NCBI GenBank assembly: GCA_027858735.1
Contig: JAQICC010000284.1
Span: 1 to 41,486, forward strand
From: Salinivirgaceae bacterium
Lineage (GTDB): Bacteria; Bacteroidota; Bacteroidia; Bacteroidales; SZUA-534
Direction: 5' to 3'
Length of the DNA stretch: 41,486 nucleotides
Shown here: piece after piece, positions 2-41,486 of the stretch
Layout: each line of letters begins with the position of its first letter
How positions within the stretch are numbered: the stretch's first letter is position 1
The notes under the pieces: generated by a model
What the model saw: only the letters and a program-made list of their open reading frames with translations
Told to the model about the DNA's origin: nothing
The model's database searches: none
Program-made: the position numbers and the translations under genes

Positions 2-949
2 GCTGCTCTCCGAGCTATTATTGATGATTATTATTTCAATTTTATACCCTACTTTGTAAATTTATTTTCATCGTTATTTACCTTTATAGCAGTAATATTC
101 TTTACATCAAAATTAGCCAGCGATTCTGAAATTATTGCAATACTAAGCAGTGGAGTAAGCTTTAAGCGATTGCTAGTACCTTATATTATTTCTTCAATTA
201 TTCTAGGAATTTTTTCATTTGTTCTTATAAACTGGGTTATTCCTCCGGCCAATGAGAAGCGGCTTGCATTTGAAGAACAATATATTAGGGTACGATATAG
301 GTATAAAGACAAAAATATTCACAAGCAAATTCATCCCGGTACTTTTGTTTATATGGAATCATACAATAATTTGTATAATATTGGCTATAAATTTTCAATG
401 GAAAAATTTGAGGATGGGAAACTAAAATCCAAACTTCTATCCGATATGATACAATGGGATACTACAATAAATAAATGGAAAATTAGCCACTATGTAAATC
501 GCGAAATATTTGATAGTATCGAAATTCTAACAAAAGGTAGAAGAATTGATACTGTACTAAATATGACGCCTGATGAATTTTATCGCAGAAACAATGCCGT
601 TGAAGCAATGAATTATAATGAACTTAATGATTTTATTGATGATGAAATAAGAATCGGTTCTGACAATGTTGTGCTTTGGAAAATTGAAAAAAATAAGCGA
701 TTTGCGTTTCCTTTTTCAACCATAATCTTAACTATTATTGGCCTAAGTTTATCGTCGCGTAAAAGGCGAGGTGGCATTGGCTTAAATATTGGAGTGGGTA
801 TTTTCTTAGCATTTTCCTATGTAATGTTTATGCAAATTTCAACGGTAATGGCAACGAATGCTAGTGTGAGTCCGATTTTTGCAGTATGGATTCCCAACCT
901 GTTTTTTGGCTTAATAGCTCTGGGTTTGTACTTTAGGGCAGCAAGCTGA
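2..949 (+). CDS. LptF/LptG family permease (5' end outside window)
   Basis: Inner-membrane permease of the LptF/LptG (YjgP/YjgQ) family. With LptB it forms the ABC transporter that extracts lipopolysaccharide from the inner membrane and passes it to the periplasmic bridge. The reading frame is open from base 2, so the gene enters the window from the left; 315 residues are visible and roughly the first 40 of a typical family member are missing. The first visible part carries the family stretch FFTSKLASDSEIIAILSSG followed by a membrane segment (IISSIILGIFSFVLI). A periplasmic middle portion follows, then two or three C-terminal membrane segments (FSTIILTIIGLSL, GIFLAFSYVMFM, IFAVWIPNLFFGLIALGLYF). 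The internal TTG at 170 is not the start because homology extends upstream of it. LptF and LptG cannot be told apart here. Confidence 0.9.
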   Translation, partial: AALRAIIDDYYFNFIPYFVNLFSSLFTFIAVIFFTSKLASDSEIIAILSSGVSFKRLLVPYIISSIILGIFSFVLINWVIPPANEKRLAFEEQYIRVRYRYKDKNIHKQIHPGTFVYMESYNNLYNIGYKFSMEKFEDGKLKSKLLSDMIQWDTTINKWKISHYVNREIFDSIEILTKGRRIDTVLNMTPDEFYRRNNAVEAMNYNELNDFIDDEIRIGSDNVVLWKIEKNKRFAFPFSTIILTIIGLSLSSRKRRGGIGLNIGVGIFLAFSYVMFMQISTVMATNASVSPIFAVWIPNLFFGLIALGLYFRAAS

Positions 950-1042
950 TTGGCATAGTTTTTTTTCTTAAAAAAACAAATACAAAACTCACGTTTAAGC
1001 CAATTCTATATTCATAAAATTGTTTATCTTGCATGCCCAAAA

Positions 1043-1067
1043 TGCACAAAAAAAAACTCTTTGTGCA
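1043..1067 (+). repeat. hairpin in the leader of the carboxylase gene
   Basis: Perfect 8-bp inverted repeat TGCACAAA (1043-1050) / TTTGTGCA (1060-1067) with a 9-base A-rich loop, 47 bp before the carboxylase ATG. No T-run follows it, so it is not an obvious terminator; it could be an mRNA leader hairpin or a protein-binding dyad. No function can be assigned. Confidence 0.4.
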
Positions 1068-1114
1068 ATTAATTAAATGACTAATACTAAGATGTTTAAC
1101 TAATAGGATTTATT

Positions 1115-2659
1115 ATGTCGTTAAAACAAAAAACACGTGAACTCTTAAAAAGAAGAGAAGAGGTTGAGTTAGGAGGAGGTGAAAAAGCCATTGAGAAGCA
1201 AAAATCAATTGGTAAATTAACAGCTCGTGAGCGTATTTTGTCTCTTCTTGATAAAGAATCATTTCATGAGTACGATTTATTCGCTGAGCATGAAGCACGT
1301 GACTTTGGAATGGAAACAAAGGTGTTACATGGTGATGGTGTTATAACCGGAACCGGGACAATTTACGGAGCTCCAATTTGTATTTATGCACAAGACTTTA
1401 CTGTAGCTGGTGGATCTTTAGGAAACATGCATGCTCGTAAAATCACTAAAATTATGGATCATGCCTTGAAAATGCGTGTACCATTAATTGGTATAAACGA
1501 TTCGGGTGGTGCTCGTATACAAGAAGGTGTTAATTCTTTAGCCGGATACGGTGAAATTTTCTTTAGAAATACCTTGTCTTCTGGTGTTATACCTCAGCTA
1601 TCGGTAATTTTAGGACCCTGTGCAGGTGGAGCTGTCTATTCGCCAGCTTTAACAGATTTTGTTTTTGTGGTTGAGAACATTTCAAAAATGTTTATTACTG
1701 GACCTGAAGTTATTAAAACAGTATTGGGCGAAGAAATCACTATGGAAGAGCTTGGCGGTGCCAGAGTACATAGCGAAATTACCGGTAATGCTCATTTTTT
1801 TGCGATGAGCGAGCTTGAATGTTTCGACCAAATTAAAAAGCTTATTACTTATATTCCTTGGAATAATAGTCAAAAAGCAAAGGCGTTTCCTCCAAAGGAA
1901 CCAAAATCGAATTATAAAATTGAAAAAATAGTACCGAATGATCCATCACAACCATATGATGTACGCGACGTAATTAGAGCTATTGCTGATGATTCTGACT
2001 TTCTTGAAGTTCAGGCGGATTTTGCGGCAAATATTGTAATTGGCTTTGGTCGAATTAAAGGCGATACCATAGGTTTTGTTGCAAATCAACCATTAGTATT
2101 AGCTGGTGTGCTTGATTGTGATAGCTCTGATAAAGCAGGTCGTTTTATCCGCTACTGCGATGCCTTTAATGTGCCGTTGGTTACTCTTGAAGACTTACCA
2201 GGTTACTTGCCAGGTGTTGATCAAGAACATGCTGGTGTTATTCGTCATGGTGCAAAAATTCTTTATGCATATAGTGAAGCAACCGTTCCACGTATTACAG
2301 TAATTCTTAGAAAAGCTTATGGTGGTGGTTATATTGCCATGAATTCACGCCATTTGCGTGCCGACTTTGTTTTTGCGTGGCCTGGTGCTGAAATTGCAGT
2401 AATGGGACCAGAAGGTGCTGCAAATATTATTTTCCGTAAGGAAATTATGGGCGCTGAAAATCCAGATGAAATGAGAAAACAAAAGGTTAAAGAATATAAA
2501 GCCAAATTTGCAAACCCATATGTTGCTGCTGCTAAAGGATATATTGATACCGTAATTCATCCGGAAGAAACACGTAAATTGTTAATTCATGCCATTGAGG
2601 TATCAAAAAACAAACGCGTAGGTCAACCTAAGAAGAAACATGGTATTCCTCCATTTTAA
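1115..2659 (+). CDS. pccB: Biotin-dependent acyl-CoA carboxylase, carboxyltransferase (beta) subunit, propionyl-CoA carboxylase type
   Basis: Carboxyltransferase subunit that moves CO2 between biotin and an acyl-CoA, most likely propionyl-CoA/methylmalonyl-CoA. The 514-residue length is normal for PccB/MmdA. The crotonase-like N half shows the acyl-CoA oxyanion region (NDSGGARIQEGVNSL, then LGPCAGGAVYSPAL). The C half shows the carboxybiotin-side motifs (LPGYLPGVDQEHAGVIRHG and AYGGGYIAMNS). The ATG at 1115 starts the conserved N-terminus, with TAATAGGATT upstream but no real Shine-Dalgarno. It is followed after 11 bp by a biotin carrier gene, so the two form one transcript ending at the terminator at 3000-3057. 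No biotin carboxylase (AccC) or membrane decarboxylase subunit is in view, so it could act as a carboxylase with a distant AccC or as a methylmalonyl-CoA decarboxylase (mmdA). Confidence 0.9.
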   Translation: MSLKQKTRELLKRREEVELGGGEKAIEKQKSIGKLTARERILSLLDKESFHEYDLFAEHEARDFGMETKVLHGDGVITGTGTIYGAPICIYAQDFTVAGGSLGNMHARKITKIMDHALKMRVPLIGINDSGGARIQEGVNSLAGYGEIFFRNTLSSGVIPQLSVILGPCAGGAVYSPALTDFVFVVENISKMFITGPEVIKTVLGEEITMEELGGARVHSEITGNAHFFAMSELECFDQIKKLITYIPWNNSQKAKAFPPKEPKSNYKIEKIVPNDPSQPYDVRDVIRAIADDSDFLEVQADFAANIVIGFGRIKGDTIGFVANQPLVLAGVLDCDSSDKAGRFIRYCDAFNVPLVTLEDLPGYLPGVDQEHAGVIRHGAKILYAYSEATVPRITVILRKAYGGGYIAMNSRHLRADFVFAWPGAEIAVMGPEGAANIIFRKEIMGAENPDEMRKQKVKEYKAKFANPYVAAAKGYIDTVIHPEETRKLLIHAIEVSKNKRVGQPKKKHGIPPF

Positions 2660-10298: not shown

Positions 10299-10311
10299 CG
10301 TTTTTGTAATT

Positions 10312-10462
10312 GTCAGCAAGAAAGCTACGCTTTTTTACAGGCTTTGTCAAGAAGGCTTCAAAGATTAAGCCTGCTATGAACTTGCTTCGGAGATTTTTAA
10401 AACGAGATTAACGCCCGCCTGACTTATTCGGGCAGGCAGTATTTGAAGTTTTCTTGCAAGAC
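10312..10462. mobile_element. MITE-like element, copy A (151 bp)
   Basis: Non-coding element with outer ends GTC...GAC. Its terminal inverted repeats are GCAAGAAAGCT (10316-10326) and AGTTTTCTTGC (10447-10457), 10 of 11 matching. A 5-bp direct repeat TAATT flanks it exactly (10307-10311 and 10463-10467), as expected for a target-site duplication. The interior shares GAACTTGCTTCGGAG and a CCTGCT block with copy B at 34991-35110. It is 31 bp longer than B because of a GC-rich hairpin, GCCCGCCTGA (10413-10422) / TCGGGCAGGC (10428-10437). It sits 27 bp before the carbonic anhydrase ATG. Confidence 0.75.
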
Positions 10463-10489
10463 TAATTACCAGTTTTAAATAATAAGATT

Positions 10490-11011
10490 ATGGCATATAT
10501 CAAATCGGTTCGTGGATTTACTCCTAAAATAGGCGAAAATTGTTTTTTAGCTGAAAATGCAACTATTGTTGGTGATGTTGTTATGGGAAATGATTGCAGT
10601 GTTTGGTTTAATGCTGTTTTGCGCGGCGATGTTAATTCCATTAGAATTGGGAATAAAGTAAACATTCAAGATGGTTCTGTTTTGCATACCTTATATCAAA
10701 AATCAACTATTGAAATTGGTAATAATGTTTCAATTGGGCATAATGTAAATATACACGGCGCTAAAATTTGCGATAATTGTTTAATTGGTATTGGGGCAAC
10801 CATACTTGATGATGCAGTTATAGGTGAAAATTCAATTATTGCTGCAAATGCTTTGATTTTAAGCAAAACCATAGTTGAGCCCAATAGCGTTTACGCAGGT
10901 GTGCCTGCAAAAAAGGTAAAAGACATTGAACCTGAACAAACTCAGGAAATGATAAATAAAATTGCCAATAATTATTTAATGTACGCTAGCTGGTACAAAG
11001 ATGAAGAGTAA
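10490..11011 (+). CDS. Gamma-class carbonic anhydrase family protein
   Basis: Left-handed beta-helix protein of 173 residues made of hexapeptide repeats (for example IGENCFLAENATIVGDVV and IGNNVSIGHNVNI). The three metal-ligand histidines of the gamma carbonic anhydrase fold are visible: His66 in SVLHTL, His84 in IGHN and His89 in NIHG. Family members are trimers binding Zn or Fe; some hydrate CO2, others (YrdA/PaaY type) have unproven activity. The C-terminus has the usual short helix (VPAKKVKDIEPEQ...). The gene is single, behind the mobile element at 10312-10462, and its stop codon directly abuts the stop of murI on the other strand with no base between. Confidence 0.88.
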   Translation: MAYIKSVRGFTPKIGENCFLAENATIVGDVVMGNDCSVWFNAVLRGDVNSIRIGNKVNIQDGSVLHTLYQKSTIEIGNNVSIGHNVNIHGAKICDNCLIGIGATILDDAVIGENSIIAANALILSKTIVEPNSVYAGVPAKKVKDIEPEQTQEMINKIANNYLMYASWYKDEE

Positions 11012-11800
11012 TTAGATTAATGTTGTAAAGATAACTTTCTCAGTGCAATTTATTTCTTTCAAGATGCTTTGCATTGGCAGAGAGTTCCCGGTATTATAAA
11101 AGCTGTATGAAGCTTTATTTAAGTCGTTAGCTATTTTCTTTTCGGCAAGTACTGATTTTGTTCGTTGAGCAATAGCTGGTGCTGGATCAATAATTTTGAT
11201 AGATTTTGGAATTAAATCCTTTATTAATCTTGTGAAAAATGGATAGTGAGTGCATCCTAATACAATTTGATCAACTCCGGCATTAAGCATGGCATCTAAA
11301 TTTTCTTTAAGTATAGGAATAGCTTCCTTTGAATTTGCTTTTCCCTGTTCTACTAATTCAACCAAGCCTTCACCTATTTGAATTACTGTATTTACATTAG
11401 TCGCAAACTTTTTACTGGTTTCTTTAAAAAGCTGGCCTTCAAAAGTTCCTTTTGTTGCAAGTACGCCAATTTTTCCTGTATTTGTATTTAAAGCTGCGGG
11501 CTTAATGGCTGGTTCCATTCCTATGAATGGGATTGAATATTTTGCTCTTAGAATGTCTATGGCTGCTGAAGTGGCGGTGTTGCAAGCAACTACAATCAGT
11601 TTACACTGGTGGGCTAATAAAAACTCAGTATTTTTTATCGATAATGCAATAATTTCCTCTTGCGATTTTGTTCCGTAGGGGCAATTTATACTATCAGCTA
11701 TATAAATGATGTTTTCAGCAGGCAGTAATTTCTTAACTTCTTGCCATACTGACAAACCTCCAATGCCGGAATCAAATATGCCTATAGGGTTATTTCGCAT
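11012..11800 (-). CDS. murI: Glutamate racemase
   Basis: Cofactor-independent racemase that makes D-glutamate for peptidoglycan. Starting at the ATG at 11800 it has 262 residues. The catalytic motifs are present: IGIFDSGIGGLSV at the N-terminus (Asp10), VACNTATSAA with Cys73, and VLGCTHYPFF with Cys183. The frame is open to a TTG at 11815, but that codon lies inside a terminator stem, and family homology begins at PIGIFDSG, so the ATG is preferred. It is the last gene of the bamA-ompH-ompH block. The intrinsic terminator at 11807-11840 ends 7 bp before its start, so its expression probably depends on read-through or on a promoter I cannot see. Confidence 0.93.
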   Translation of the reverse strand: MRNNPIGIFDSGIGGLSVWQEVKKLLPAENIIYIADSINCPYGTKSQEEIIALSIKNTEFLLAHQCKLIVVACNTATSAAIDILRAKYSIPFIGMEPAIKPAALNTNTGKIGVLATKGTFEGQLFKETSKKFATNVNTVIQIGEGLVELVEQGKANSKEAIPILKENLDAMLNAGVDQIVLGCTHYPFFTRLIKDLIPKSIKIIDPAPAIAQRTKSVLAEKKIANDLNKASYSFYNTGNSLPMQSILKEINCTEKVIFTTLI

Positions 11801-11806
11801 GACTAC

Positions 11807-11840
11807 AAAAAACAAAGACCATCAAATATTGATGGTCTTT
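11807..11840 (-). terminator. Strong intrinsic terminator between ompH and murI
   Basis: Perfect 12-bp stem AAAGACCATCAA (11814-11825) / TTGATGGTCTTT (11829-11840) with a 3-base loop. On the minus strand it is followed by G and six T (complement of 11807-11812). It begins 19 bp past the ompH stop and ends 6 bp before the murI ATG. This is a textbook rho-independent shape inside what is normally a co-transcribed gene block. Confidence 0.85.
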
Positions 11841-11859
11841 ATAAATATAACTAATATTT

Positions 11860-12378
11860 TTATTGAATACCAAGTTTCACTTTAACAAGAGGTAAAATAT
11901 CTTCGCTATCAGCGCTATGGTGTAATACTACACCAGTACCAACATCAAATACATAAAGGTAACCACCTTCTTCAGAAACTTCACTAATAGCGGTTTTTGC
12001 TTTAGCAATAATAGGTTGTAATAACTCATTTTCTTTCTCACCTAAATCTTGTTGCGCGGTTTGTTGAAAATTTTGAATTCTTTGTTGCATTTCACTTAGT
12101 TCACCCTCTTTGGTTTCGCGAAGAAGTTTCGAAAGTGAATCAGCACTTACAACATAGTTCTGATATTTTCTTTCAAACTCAGATTGCATTGAAGTAAGTG
12201 TGCTTTCAAGCTGTTTAGCATATTTTTCAAGCTCTACTTTTGCATTTTCTCTCTCAGGCATAATTGATAAAAGTGCATTAGAATCAATGTGGCCAAATTT
12301 ATATTGCTTTTGTGCAAATGTTTGGCTTCCAGCAAATGTTGCGACTAGCAAAATTACGATGGTTAAAATCTTTTTCAT
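11860..12378 (-). CDS. OmpH/Skp family periplasmic chaperone (second copy)
   Basis: Periplasmic chaperone of the Skp/OmpH family that holds unfolded outer-membrane proteins on the way to the BAM complex. It has 172 residues with a signal peptide (MKKILTIVILLVATFAGSQT, cleavage near TFAQ). The mature start YKFGHIDSNALLSIMPE is typical. A long Gln/Glu/Lys-rich helical region (about 45-135) would form the tentacles of a trimer, and the C-terminal strand GYLYVFDVGTGVVLHH closes the body. It lies 62 bp downstream of another ompH gene, a tandem pair common in this phylum. The strong terminator at 11807-11840 follows. Confidence 0.9.
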   Translation of the reverse strand: MKKILTIVILLVATFAGSQTFAQKQYKFGHIDSNALLSIMPERENAKVELEKYAKQLESTLTSMQSEFERKYQNYVVSADSLSKLLRETKEGELSEMQQRIQNFQQTAQQDLGEKENELLQPIIAKAKTAISEVSEEGGYLYVFDVGTGVVLHHSADSEDILPLVKVKLGIQ

Positions 12379-32570: not shown

Positions 32571-35171
32571 TTACTCAAGAACCATTTTATCCTCAATAAT
32601 GCAAAATTTGCAATAATTATCTTTCACAAAATTGTTTTCAAATACTTTAAGCGAGAAATAATCTCCATTAAACAATTCGCAAAATCTTTTAGCATTTAGT
32701 TCTCTACTTCGTTCAAGGGCATAATTAAACTTTTGAGTATGCATACGCATTTCAAATCTACTGCACAGCGAAAGGTATGTAAATAATAATTCTTCATTTA
32801 CATTAGGATTATATACCCACGGTTCAAGAGTTTTTAAAGCAAATGTGTAATCAGAATTTTCAATAAAAAGCTCGGCTAATTTTAATGAGTTCTCAAGCGT
32901 TTCATCATGAATATCTACAATTTGTTTTATACGGGTAATACACTCTTTTTTAACTTTCTCATTCGTATTTGTAGAGTCGGCAAAGGTTATTAATTTAAAC
33001 TGAAGTTTAATATTTAACGCATCAATGGTTTCTTTTTTTAACGGCGTAAAATATAATCTATCAATACGGGTTTGCAATGCATTTGCTTCAGCATCCGACG
33101 GAAAAGCATCTTTAGTTACCTTTAAAAATAAATCGTTGAAGGCTATATATTCGTTGTTAGGATTTAATTTTTGAAGCTGTTCAACGTTCAAGGCAAATTC
33201 TTCCTGAGAAATTTGATTTGTAAATTGCTGCAACCAAAGATTATTCATTTTTAACCCAGAATAGGCTTTGGAGCATGGTATATCTAATTGTGTTAAAATA
33301 GCAGGGTTGTATTGATAGCTTAAAACTTTTTTCATTATATATTTCTGAATAGATAGCGCTAATATTCTATCGTTTTCAGTAATTGCTTTTTTGAATTTCT
33401 TTAGAACATAGGGCTTTTCATTCTCGCCTTCTATATCAAAAGTAACCTTCATGTCTATTTGAGCATACCTGTGATTTTGTAATATGGGCTCAAGTTCTTT
33501 ATTTAAGTTATAGCTGCGTATGTATGCTTGAGCTTCTTCCATTTTCATCGATGCCAATATACTGTGCTTAGTTTTTTGAACATCTTTTTTAAAATCACTC
33601 CAGTTGTAATCAGTAATTAATTTTGTGCTTATTAATTCTTTTTGTCTGTCTTCTAAAGCACTAATGATACTTTCTGCACGCTGTTGCTGAAGTCGCTTGT
33701 TTTCTGAGTCTGTTCCTTCAATTGAACTGTAAGCTGTTATTTGCAAATCATAAATTAAAAATGCAGGATCGTTTAAAAGTTTTAGAAATGGTTCAATATC
33801 TTCTGTATGGTAAGTATGTTTTTTATTTTCAAAAGGTATTCGTAAACATAATTGCATTGAATCGGCAATTGGTTTATATTGAAATTTAGAATTAATGGTT
33901 ACTGTATCAGCAAGCAATTTAATCTTACGCGTATAGGTTCCTGATGACTTTATTAAAAAACTTTGAGGAATGGTTTTACATGCACTTTTATTTTTTATAA
34001 GTACTAAATTTAGTTCATAATCATCAGAAATACCTTCGGGCAATACAGCAACTTGAGCTTTAAATTTGGTTGAGTTATCCTCAGATTCAACAAGGTTATT
34101 TTTAAATAGTTTTGAAGAATAAATGCGTTTTGTTAATATTCCTTGATTTAATGAATTGTGGTCAACAATGTTTGGTACTGAACATGAAAATTGTTCCTTT
34201 TGTAAAATGTCAATGGCAATGCCATCTTTCTTCTTGTTAATGAGCTTTTTAAACGACTTGTAATCATCAGTTTCAAAATATATGGCATTTCCTTCTATCG
34301 AAAGGCCTTTGTGTAAATCCATAATGTTTTCATATCGATTTACCTTTTTACAGAAAACGGGATCGGAATTTGTTAAGCCGTAGTTTCTTTTGGAATAAGG
34401 CAGTTTTAAATTGTCGATATATTTAGGACCTTCATTAAACGATTTGTAATTACCTAGTACCATTGATGTATAGACTTTGCGTTTAGATTCGTCAATTTTT
34501 ACACTAATCCCTACTAAGGTGTAATCAAGGCTTTCAATAATTTTTGCCTTTTTGGAACTCGCAAGCCATTTAAAAACAATATCATCGGCAATTTTTGCAT
34601 AGGTGTAAGGTATTTTACCACTTTTAATACTTGTTTTAGAGCTTAACTCCTCGGCAAGTTTTGAGCCGCCGTATGCTTCAAGTCTTTCTCCAGTAGTGTT
34701 TTTATCTTTCTCGTCCCTAACTAGTTCGTCATCTTGAATTTTTGCCATATAAATAGCCTGATCTTCAGCAGTAAGTTTTAAAAGCTCATTCTTTTGTTTT
34801 TTATCGAAGCCTTTTTTTTCTAAAATTTCATTGATTTGATCAAATATTATTTCTTCAATTACAGTTTCATAAAATTGATCAGGGTTTGCCTCTTCTGTAG
34901 AATTTACAACAATTTCACCAATTACATACGATTTTTCATATTGTTGGGCCGTTGAAAATTTTGGAGTTAAAGCAGCTATTCCTATAAGTAGTGCTTGCAA
35001 GAAAACTAGGTGTCTGATAAAGAAAGCTTTATTTTTGAGCCTGCTCCGAACTTGCTTCGGAGGCTTTTGAAGCAAGCGTAACGAAAAAAAGGGAGTTTTC
35101 TTGCAGAGACTAAGTAGGAGAGATAGGAAATGGTATATAGATTGAATAGGTCTTTGTAATAGGAGCATCAT
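32571..35171 (-). CDS. Large exported protein with an OmpA-like segment; signal peptide interrupted by a mobile element
   Basis: Protein of up to 866 residues; I do not recognise the whole. A region near the middle (EPFLKLLNDPAFLIYDLQIT, then AYSSIEGTDSENKRLQQQRA and ESIISAL) looks like an OmpA C-terminal peptidoglycan-binding fold. The C-terminal third is helical and repeat-like, possibly TPR (TLENSLKLAELFIENSDYTF). The N-terminus is odd: codons about 20-61 are the 120-bp MITE-like element at 34991-35110 plus one target copy. A hydrophobic stretch and STA-QQ cleavage site follow at about 55-76. Translation may start at the ATG at 35171 (promoter-like TAGATTTG 44 bp upstream) or inside. Likely periplasmic or outer-membrane associated. 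Confidence 0.72.
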   Translation of the reverse strand: MMLLLQRPIQSIYHFLSLLLSLCKKTPFFSLRLLQKPPKQVRSRLKNKAFFIRHLVFLQALLIGIAALTPKFSTAQQYEKSYVIGEIVVNSTEEANPDQFYETVIEEIIFDQINEILEKKGFDKKQKNELLKLTAEDQAIYMAKIQDDELVRDEKDKNTTGERLEAYGGSKLAEELSSKTSIKSGKIPYTYAKIADDIVFKWLASSKKAKIIESLDYTLVGISVKIDESKRKVYTSMVLGNYKSFNEGPKYIDNLKLPYSKRNYGLTNSDPVFCKKVNRYENIMDLHKGLSIEGNAIYFETDDYKSFKKLINKKKDGIAIDILQKEQFSCSVPNIVDHNSLNQGILTKRIYSSKLFKNNLVESEDNSTKFKAQVAVLPEGISDDYELNLVLIKNKSACKTIPQSFLIKSSGTYTRKIKLLADTVTINSKFQYKPIADSMQLCLRIPFENKKHTYHTEDIEPFLKLLNDPAFLIYDLQITAYSSIEGTDSENKRLQQQRAESIISALEDRQKELISTKLITDYNWSDFKKDVQKTKHSILASMKMEEAQAYIRSYNLNKELEPILQNHRYAQIDMKVTFDIEGENEKPYVLKKFKKAITENDRILALSIQKYIMKKVLSYQYNPAILTQLDIPCSKAYSGLKMNNLWLQQFTNQISQEEFALNVEQLQKLNPNNEYIAFNDLFLKVTKDAFPSDAEANALQTRIDRLYFTPLKKETIDALNIKLQFKLITFADSTNTNEKVKKECITRIKQIVDIHDETLENSLKLAELFIENSDYTFALKTLEPWVYNPNVNEELLFTYLSLCSRFEMRMHTQKFNYALERSRELNAKRFCELFNGDYFSLKVFENNFVKDNYCKFCIIEDKMVLE
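34991..35110. mobile_element. MITE-like element, copy B (120 bp), inside a coding region
   Basis: Terminal inverted repeats TGCAAGAAAACT (34996-35007) / AGTTTTCTTGCA (35094-35105), perfect over 12 bp, with outer ends GTGCT...GAGAC. The 6-bp direct repeat TAAGTA lies immediately outside both ends (34985-34990 and 35111-35116). The interior shares GAACTTGCTTCGGAG with copy A, and CGTTAC and AGCTTTCTTTATCAGA-like blocks (complement strand) with copy C at 41347. There is no room for a transposase, so it would need one acting in trans. It lies in the signal-peptide region of the exported protein at 32571-35171 and is open in that frame. Confidence 0.8.
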
Positions 35172-40790: not shown

Positions 40791-41346
40791 AATATCAGGT
40801 ACTTACTATGAAAATTTTTACCAATTGAACGGTATAACAACAAACAACATTTAACAACTATTTTTCAGATGCCTGATATAATAACATTAATCAAAAAGAA
40901 TGCCACAATTTGTATTTTAGTTTATTTTTTTAATCTTAGGGTTAAATAGGTAAAAATGTAACAGGGAATGGTAGAAATTGTCTTAAAAATTGCGCTTCTT
41001 TTTGTAAGATTTAATGACAACAGTTGTCATAGTTGATTTGTAAGAGTTATTTTTTTATAGGTTAAATATCGTTAACAATAAGTAATAAGGTATTAATAAC
41101 GATTCGCCAAATTTCTTGCTTCTAGCTAGTGACCAACCAAAAATAAGGTTGGGAAGGTTAGTATTTTGTTTAAGTGGCCTATCAAGTGTTTGAGAAAAAC
41201 AGCGAAACTGTTCACCAATATTTACTTCATCGAAATTTGATGATATTTTCATATTTTGTAAGTTAATTGCATTGAAATAATCGAATCTGAAAATGTAGCC
41301 TAACTGTGTTGGCACTATTAATACTTCAAGAATACATGTAATTACT
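40791..41346. other. Intergenic region, no convincing gene
   Basis: About 550 bp after the tolC terminator. It contains an inverted repeat ATATCAGG (40792-40799) / CCTGATAT (40872-40879) and an operator-like dyad ATGACAA-CAG-TTGTCAT (41014-41030). A minus-strand frame at 41055-41315 (86 codons) lacks a signal peptide, motif or promoter that I can recognise; it may be chance or a remnant. Confidence 0.5.
41014..41030. promoter_or_regulatory. Operator-like dyad
   Basis: Perfect 7-bp arms ATGACAA / TTGTCAT around a 3-bp centre, 17 bp in all, with no T-run. The size and symmetry suit a dimeric transcription factor, but no gene start is clearly linked within the window. Confidence 0.35.
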
Positions 41347-41486
41347 GTCTCAGCAAGAAAACTCCAATAATTTCGTTACTCTTGCATTTCAACCAGTCAT
41401 CCCGAGATTTCGGGACTCCTGATTTTCAATGCTGCGAAAGTCTCATTCTTGGAGCTTTCTTATCAGAGACCGAGTTTTCTTGCAGG
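41347..41486. mobile_element. MITE-like element, copy C (right end cut by window edge)
   Basis: Begins GTCTCAGCAAG and has terminal inverted repeats GCAAGAAAACTC (41353-41364) / GAGTTTTCTTGC (41472-41483), perfect over 12 bp. The window ends three bases later, just before the expected GAC end. Read on this strand it shares TTTCGTTAC and AGCTTTCTTATCAGA blocks with the complement of copy B. It carries its own small GC-rich hairpin TCCCGA/TCGGGA (41400-41415). Left flank is ATTACT, so a TTACT-like duplication is expected just outside the window. Confidence 0.7.

Follow-up and report, generated by a model that had tools for sequence, protein, structure and literature searches.

In a 41,486-nucleotide stretch of a Salinivirgaceae genome (contig JAQICC010000284.1; hereafter, the window), a 120-bp segment is probably a non-autonomous, MITE-like transposable element that entered the signal peptide of a minus-strand gene, with the host leader rebuilt and the protein still exported. 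Based on a base-level reading, the segment lies between two copies of TAAGTA (Table 1). The initial annotation had placed a mobile element here correctly to the base, and terminal inverted repeats, target duplication, and high copy number all agree with this description. The terminal inverted arms (19 nt) are 84% complementary, and the element strand folds better than 200 of 200 shuffled sequences (z -3.36). Element and one target copy together comprise 126 nt, i.e., 42 codons, which contain no stop in the host-gene frame; the insertion is in frame in an 866-aa open reading frame (ORF), as had been claimed.

Table 1 Features of the window and further family copies at genic places.
Feature	Sequence	Coordinates	Strand	Basis
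Target duplication, copy 1 (TAAGTA)	window	34985..34990		Direct reading; TANNTA rule of the repeat family
Inserted 120-bp element, with its left end at the lower coordinate	window	34991..35110	+	Reading, DNA matches, end patterns, flank analysis
Target duplication, copy 2 (TAAGTA)	window	35111..35116		Direct reading
Left terminal inverted repeat, including TA of target copy	window	34989..35007	+	Inverted-repeat search
Right terminal inverted repeat, including TA of target copy	window	35094..35112	+	Inverted-repeat search
Host gene, 866 aa, predicted exported protein, weak OmpA-like match	window	32571..35171	-	ORF; Pfam; homologues
Present signal peptide region (codons 1-75; cleavage presumed at STA/QQ)	window	34947..35171	-	Codon list; cleavage inferred
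Putative rebuilt hydrophobic core LVFLQALLIGIA, encoded jointly by element and host	window	34974..35009	-	Hydropathy 2.57; function inferred
Basic stretch QKPPKQVRSRLKNKAFFIRH encoded by the element	window	35010..35069	-	Codon list
Degenerate second family copy	window	10308..10465	+	Family matches, end and flank analysis
Third family copy, cut by the contig end	window	41345..41486	-	Right-end pattern matches
Oppositely oriented copy in the signal peptide of another, unrelated secreted protein	G108:C39			2091-codon ORF from its ATG; SprB repeats
Copy at N-terminus of a Polysacc_synt flippase	G002:C64			Pfam
Copy inside a Caroten_synth protein	G001:C69			Pfam match falls into two stretches
Copy at N-terminus of a P-loop protein	G108:C79			AAA matches below cut-off
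Copy between ThiE-like C-terminus and ThiD domain (Phos_pyr_kin), near contig end	G001:C31 (L276)	10800-11907, frame from 648		
Copy in LptE lipoprotein leader	G051:C80 (L279)	626-1285	-	Pfam PF04390, 70.7 bits (cut-off 23)

The terminal inverted repeats are common to a whole repeat family, as found in left- and right-end pattern searches. In the window's genome (5.99 Mb, 452 contigs), 60 left ends were found at ≤3 mismatches compared to none for a control pattern, and the absence of the repeat from the rest of the genome, which the initial annotation had listed against its own reading, was therefore not observed. The right-end pattern matched 86 times (a count that includes weak matches and left ends read in reverse) versus once for its control, and at least 51 DNA matches to the element were recorded with 40 of 144 candidates scored. 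A total of 100 regions, representing part of the listed places, were fetched from the match lists of this genome. Copies outside the window are mostly 122–168 bp long. Because TA occurs at positions -4/-3 in 119 of 133 distinct ends, the target is TANNTA. Identical 6-bp flanks are present in 13 of 30 full copies from this genome (2.7 expected; 0 of 10,000 re-pairings as high), with unequal flanking 6-mers in the remaining 17. G108, a genome of another taxonomic family, has at least 46 matches to the element (40 of 134 candidates scored). Of 30 copies fetched from it, 25 are flanked by identical 6-mers, a count that leans upward given that the end-finder favoured equal flanks. Over a recombinase-like cause of the 17 unequal pairs, the G108 result favours ordinary duplication, followed by mutation or inter-copy recombination.

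To our knowledge, REP elements, which are moved by Y1 (RAYT-type) transposases, produce no target duplication. A REP/RAYT-type identity is contradicted by the clear target duplication and the length of at least 120 bp, REP elements being described as 20–40 bp palindromes (PMC3733652). Many contigs in the draft of the window's genome end within the repeat, which is hence hard to assemble, and the locus might be a chimera in which unrelated flanks were joined across it. Such an artefact is highly improbable, however, with identical 6-bp flanks and two halves that give one normal signal peptide in frame.

Among 20 genomes of the taxonomic family, 4 carry the repeat family; across the order, the count is at least 32 of the 295 genomes sampled, a lower bound from two scored candidates per genome. 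No facing ends 0.8–3 kb apart, as expected of an autonomous partner, were found among the listed end positions of seven genomes (G000, G004, G001, G002, G108, G231, and G237), which as drafts may miss collapsed small contigs. Three copies (L074, L091, and L093; contigs C208, C370, and C379) have a common right flank (CTATGTTGTAATCC...), and part of the family may travel in a longer repeat. Four relatives (L199, L205, L209, and L214) combine the same core with other ends (CCATAAAGTC... with ...ATTATGGAC), as if ends and core had been exchanged. In five loci of the window's own genome (L072 from position 871 onward, L065, L118, L125, and L137), an insertion sequence (ORF MKKKVIIGIDFSKLTLDVTC...), IS110-like by eye, appears to occupy a single recurrent position within the element, which it may use as a landing site. 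In L124 and L088 of the same genome, the hairpin loop is split, again by eye, by another IS-like sequence that has a transposase-like ORF.

To analyze the structure of the family, we aligned copies for which both ends were definable (17 of 33 loci) together with the window copy and L082 and L187 (re-oriented), resulting in 20 copies from 19 genomes. RNAalifold predicted 39 pairs from this alignment, and 94.4% of cells in the predicted hairpin pair. Changes on both sides were found in 26 hairpin pairs compared to 13.4 (sd 2.0) in shuffles, a test that relatedness can inflate. When the hairpin partner was slid by 1–3 columns, pairing fell to 45–51%; relatedness is preserved in this control, although the structure itself came from the same alignment. 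On this predicted structure, the family would form a long imperfect hairpin that is kept by compensatory changes. No Rfam match at the gathering score was found for 10 sources, including the window. Wobble pairs in the 39-pair alignment comprised 60 G-T cells versus 11 A-C cells. This asymmetry is a hint that the structure of one strand matters, as RNA or as single-stranded DNA; since that very strand was used to predict the fold, we do not rely on it.

Pfam hits to the host protein were found only below cut-off (weak OmpA), and one homologue has weak OmpA and CAP matches, below curated cut-offs. Of 40 genomes, 24 (counting that of the window) contain matches to the host protein. Excluding the window and two element-only matches (L033 and L034), 23 homologues remained, to which two from named genomes were added (one Salinivirgaceae MAG and one Bacteroidia MAG, which would place the host near Bacteroidales). 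None of these 25 homologues carries the extra 42 codons (by alignment, with start codons judged by eye); homologues that do carry them, which the initial annotation had named as evidence against an insertion, were thus not observed. The number of residues to the first Q is 21–44 in eight measured homologue leaders versus 76 in the window. Leader length thus varies (the G005 homologue has the 44 residues), as it might if the 42 codons were an old, conserved part of the protein family that resembles the repeat by accident. That account has next to no probability, given that the segment is missing from all 25 homologues and matches many copies elsewhere at the DNA level.

Without the 42 codons, the host leader starts MMLLLQRPIQSIYHFLSLLLIGIAALTPKFSTAQ, and the codon list supports the earlier statement that the insertion splits a hydrophobic core. 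The best 12-residue hydropathy is 2.57 for the rebuilt core, compared to 2.77 without the element and 2.51–3.07 in eight homologue leaders. The element probably inserted at TAAGTA after codon 18 of a secreted-protein gene, duplicating the site, with translation presumably still starting at the original ATG. It would thereby have added a basic stretch, and its terminal repeat (LVFLQAL) would form a new hydrophobic core with the host sequence LIGIAAL, such that the protein may still be exported and cleaved near STA/QQ. Copies of neutral length and open frame can survive in genes, the others presumably being removed by selection. The first hydrophobic stretch, HFLSLLLSLC, is still present in the window leader and could compete as a signal or anchor, which counts against the rebuilt-signal model. 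Alternatively, a TTG at codon 33 or 58 may serve as the start, placing initiation inside the element or beyond it, or an element promoter may drive a shorter protein with a new N-terminus: two TTG codons are present in the element and KNKAFFIRHLVFLQALLIG looks like a signal on its own. In-frame ATGs, however, are found only at codons 1 and 2, and a start at codon 58 would give a leader without basic residues, making an internal start quite unlikely.

The reading frame through the element bears on the proposed rebuilding from the terminal repeat. The element starts with TAGT, a stop at once in one phase, and its consensus in the window's genome has an early TGA in another. In the third phase, a reading begins with SxxKKT and finishes with VFLxxL; since the two ends are inverted repeats, this is true of both orientations. 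The window element is read antisense and the G108:C39 element sense; VFLQAL directly precedes the severed core LIGIAAL in the window, and LLLQAL directly precedes IIAGLIFASII in G108:C39, where the rebuilt core has a best 12-residue hydropathy of 2.94. For G108:C39 (locus L311), the first 1237 codons of the frame were scanned with Pfam; its terminal repeats are worn and the end-finding script misplaced its ends. This second, independent case makes a rebuilt signal more plausible, and in both signal-peptide insertions the signal was probably rebuilt from the terminal repeat of the element.

Frame-neutral length is a property of some copies only. In the window's genome, 10 of 29 full copies are frame-neutral (three open antisense and two open sense), and a script classed 7 of 30 copies in G108 as frame-neutral, six of which are open in sense. 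Because the open G108 copies include intergenic ones, an open frame is a subfamily trait that alone is no proof of coding selection. Alternatively, the insertion may have been damaging: export would be lost, and the gene would be a pseudogene at an early stage, its frame still intact merely owing to the youth of the event. The perfect target duplication in the window accords with this, loss of export needs no in-frame stop, and a copy in G108:C82 breaks a gene; however, about 800 host-gene codons downstream of the insertion stay open, chance would usually break the frame given that open frame-neutral copies are a minority (3 of 29 in the antisense reading), and a similar insertion, with worn ends, was kept in G108:C39. 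Overall, damage is the unlikely reading, and we favour a leader that was rebuilt and kept.

Related copies were found in frame at no fewer than six other genic places, counted among the long frames that were read, with Pfam (Table 1). Profile searches with the translated element, run on 30 carrier genomes and, at E ≤1e-11, on 393 genomes of the order, contributed further cases. These searches look in one phase only, so that the same reading phase throughout is partly by construction. When 147 element places, 57 of them truncated at a sequence end, were scanned irrespective of phase for ORFs of ≥100 codons that run across the element, three cases proved genuine (the window, G002:C64, and G001:C69), all in the permitted phase. 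In G051:C80, the element lacks its far end and supplies the leader MIFSLCKKTP...SKTG before KKVVFAFFLVTLSSCG of LptE, and the sole upstream in-frame ATG of the printed frame sits just before the element. The element's own TAG, as seen by eye, is the stop codon of the preceding gene. The G001:C31 copy lies in one open frame, as if two neighbouring genes had fused; its ThiE-like part was recognised by eye and not by Pfam.

Genic insertion is not always harmless. In the counter-example at G108:C82:129728, a frame of 361 codons that encodes a DUF4062 domain terminates within the element, and the coding sequence continues beyond it in a different frame; the gene is thus broken. Most other listed copies lie in short frames. 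A number of candidates were rejected as insertions: G004:C105 has a miaA-like start downstream of the element, G197:C220 and G000:C273 have a usable downstream ATG, and no recognised gene was found in G208:C79, G237:C27, G237:C34, or G320:C73. L156 and L198 are BLAST hits inside genes without element ends, and L082 and L151 lie in short antisense frames. The copy at G004:C123:1-300 (L033) was also rejected, as it lacks a matching duplication and is preceded by a stop at a distance of three codons; it abuts the hydrophobic core of another signal peptide, in a gene that may have lost its start.

The initial annotation had called the insertion recent. We do not support this term: the target duplication is perfect, but the window copy is an internal-deletion form without a near-identical full-length sibling among the scored matches, and in G001:C69 and G108:C39 the terminal repeats are worn while the frame is intact. 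The internal-deletion junction is absent from all other fetched loci; with 40 of 144 candidates scored, the best other match in the genome extends over 78 of 132 bases, at 90%. The closest homologue found for the host protein has 62% protein identity. An empty DNA site in a sister genome was not found, the homologues from the named genomes that were scanned being two distant ones (45% and 39%). The worn ends and kept frames of G001:C69 and G108:C39 suggest that such insertions persist.

Miniature transposons in frame are already known from Rickettsia, Yersinia, and Coxiella, one of them in a predicted signal peptide, and the window provides a case from Bacteroidota. The Rickettsia palindromic elements (RPEs) were reportedly described by Ogata et al. 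(2000, 2002). The new family resembles them as a palindrome that is in frame in several unrelated genes, here in the window and at least six other genic places. RPEs, as far as the available excerpts describe them, are palindromic repeats of about 150 bp found in frame in unrelated protein genes (PMC10969869, PMC2229807). They differ in host phylum, and a review table lists their duplication as unknown, whereas clear terminal inverted repeats and TANNTA duplication are present here. Compared by description, the element appears to work like an RPE, and we do not file it as one. In the consulted sections on YPAL/RU-2 of Yersinia (Delihas 2007), the translated end of a MITE forms residues 1–30 of a predicted signal peptide in YPO1552 (PMC2759123). 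That fusion formed a new exported ORF, whereas here the insertion interrupted a signal peptide that the homologous family already had, and the signal was apparently rebuilt.

QMITE of Coxiella burnetii comprises MITEs inserted in frame in ORFs (PMC5896051); the portion of its description at hand contains no signal-peptide case, and host and sequence differ. Two other high-copy MITEs of Bacteroidota are comparable, according to the accessible text of their descriptions. BrickBuilt of Porphyromonas gingivalis is described as always intergenic (PMC4596501) and has other terminal repeats, and MITECca01 of Cardinium (about 240 bp, IS982-derived) is mostly intergenic or in other mobile elements (PMC9769881). 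Literature searches on MITEs in Bacteroidales/Bacteroidetes and with the terminal string, in an incomplete coverage of the literature, found no description of the present family. Its unusual part is the recurrent insertion in leaders of exported proteins.

More broadly, and only tentatively, these copies may represent undescribed, order-wide hairpin transposons of Bacteroidota, some subfamilies of which are frame-neutral, have an open frame on one strand or on both, and serve as mobile coding modules. Through the charged start and hydrophobic end encoded by their inverted repeats, such modules could enter signal peptides, N-termini, loops, and gene junctions in either orientation, the new leader or linker then being kept. 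LptE is a protein of the outer-membrane assembly machinery, and one insertion forms its leader; two others, oppositely oriented, lie in the signal peptides of two unrelated genes. Genes with such insertions are at risk of wrong start-site annotation. Together, the copies provide a testable set of natural selfish-DNA insertions in proteins outside Rickettsia, with which the rebuilding of an export signal by a transposon end, and the reasons for the survival of only certain subfamilies within genes, can be addressed directly. What we describe looks like selfish DNA becoming part of proteins.
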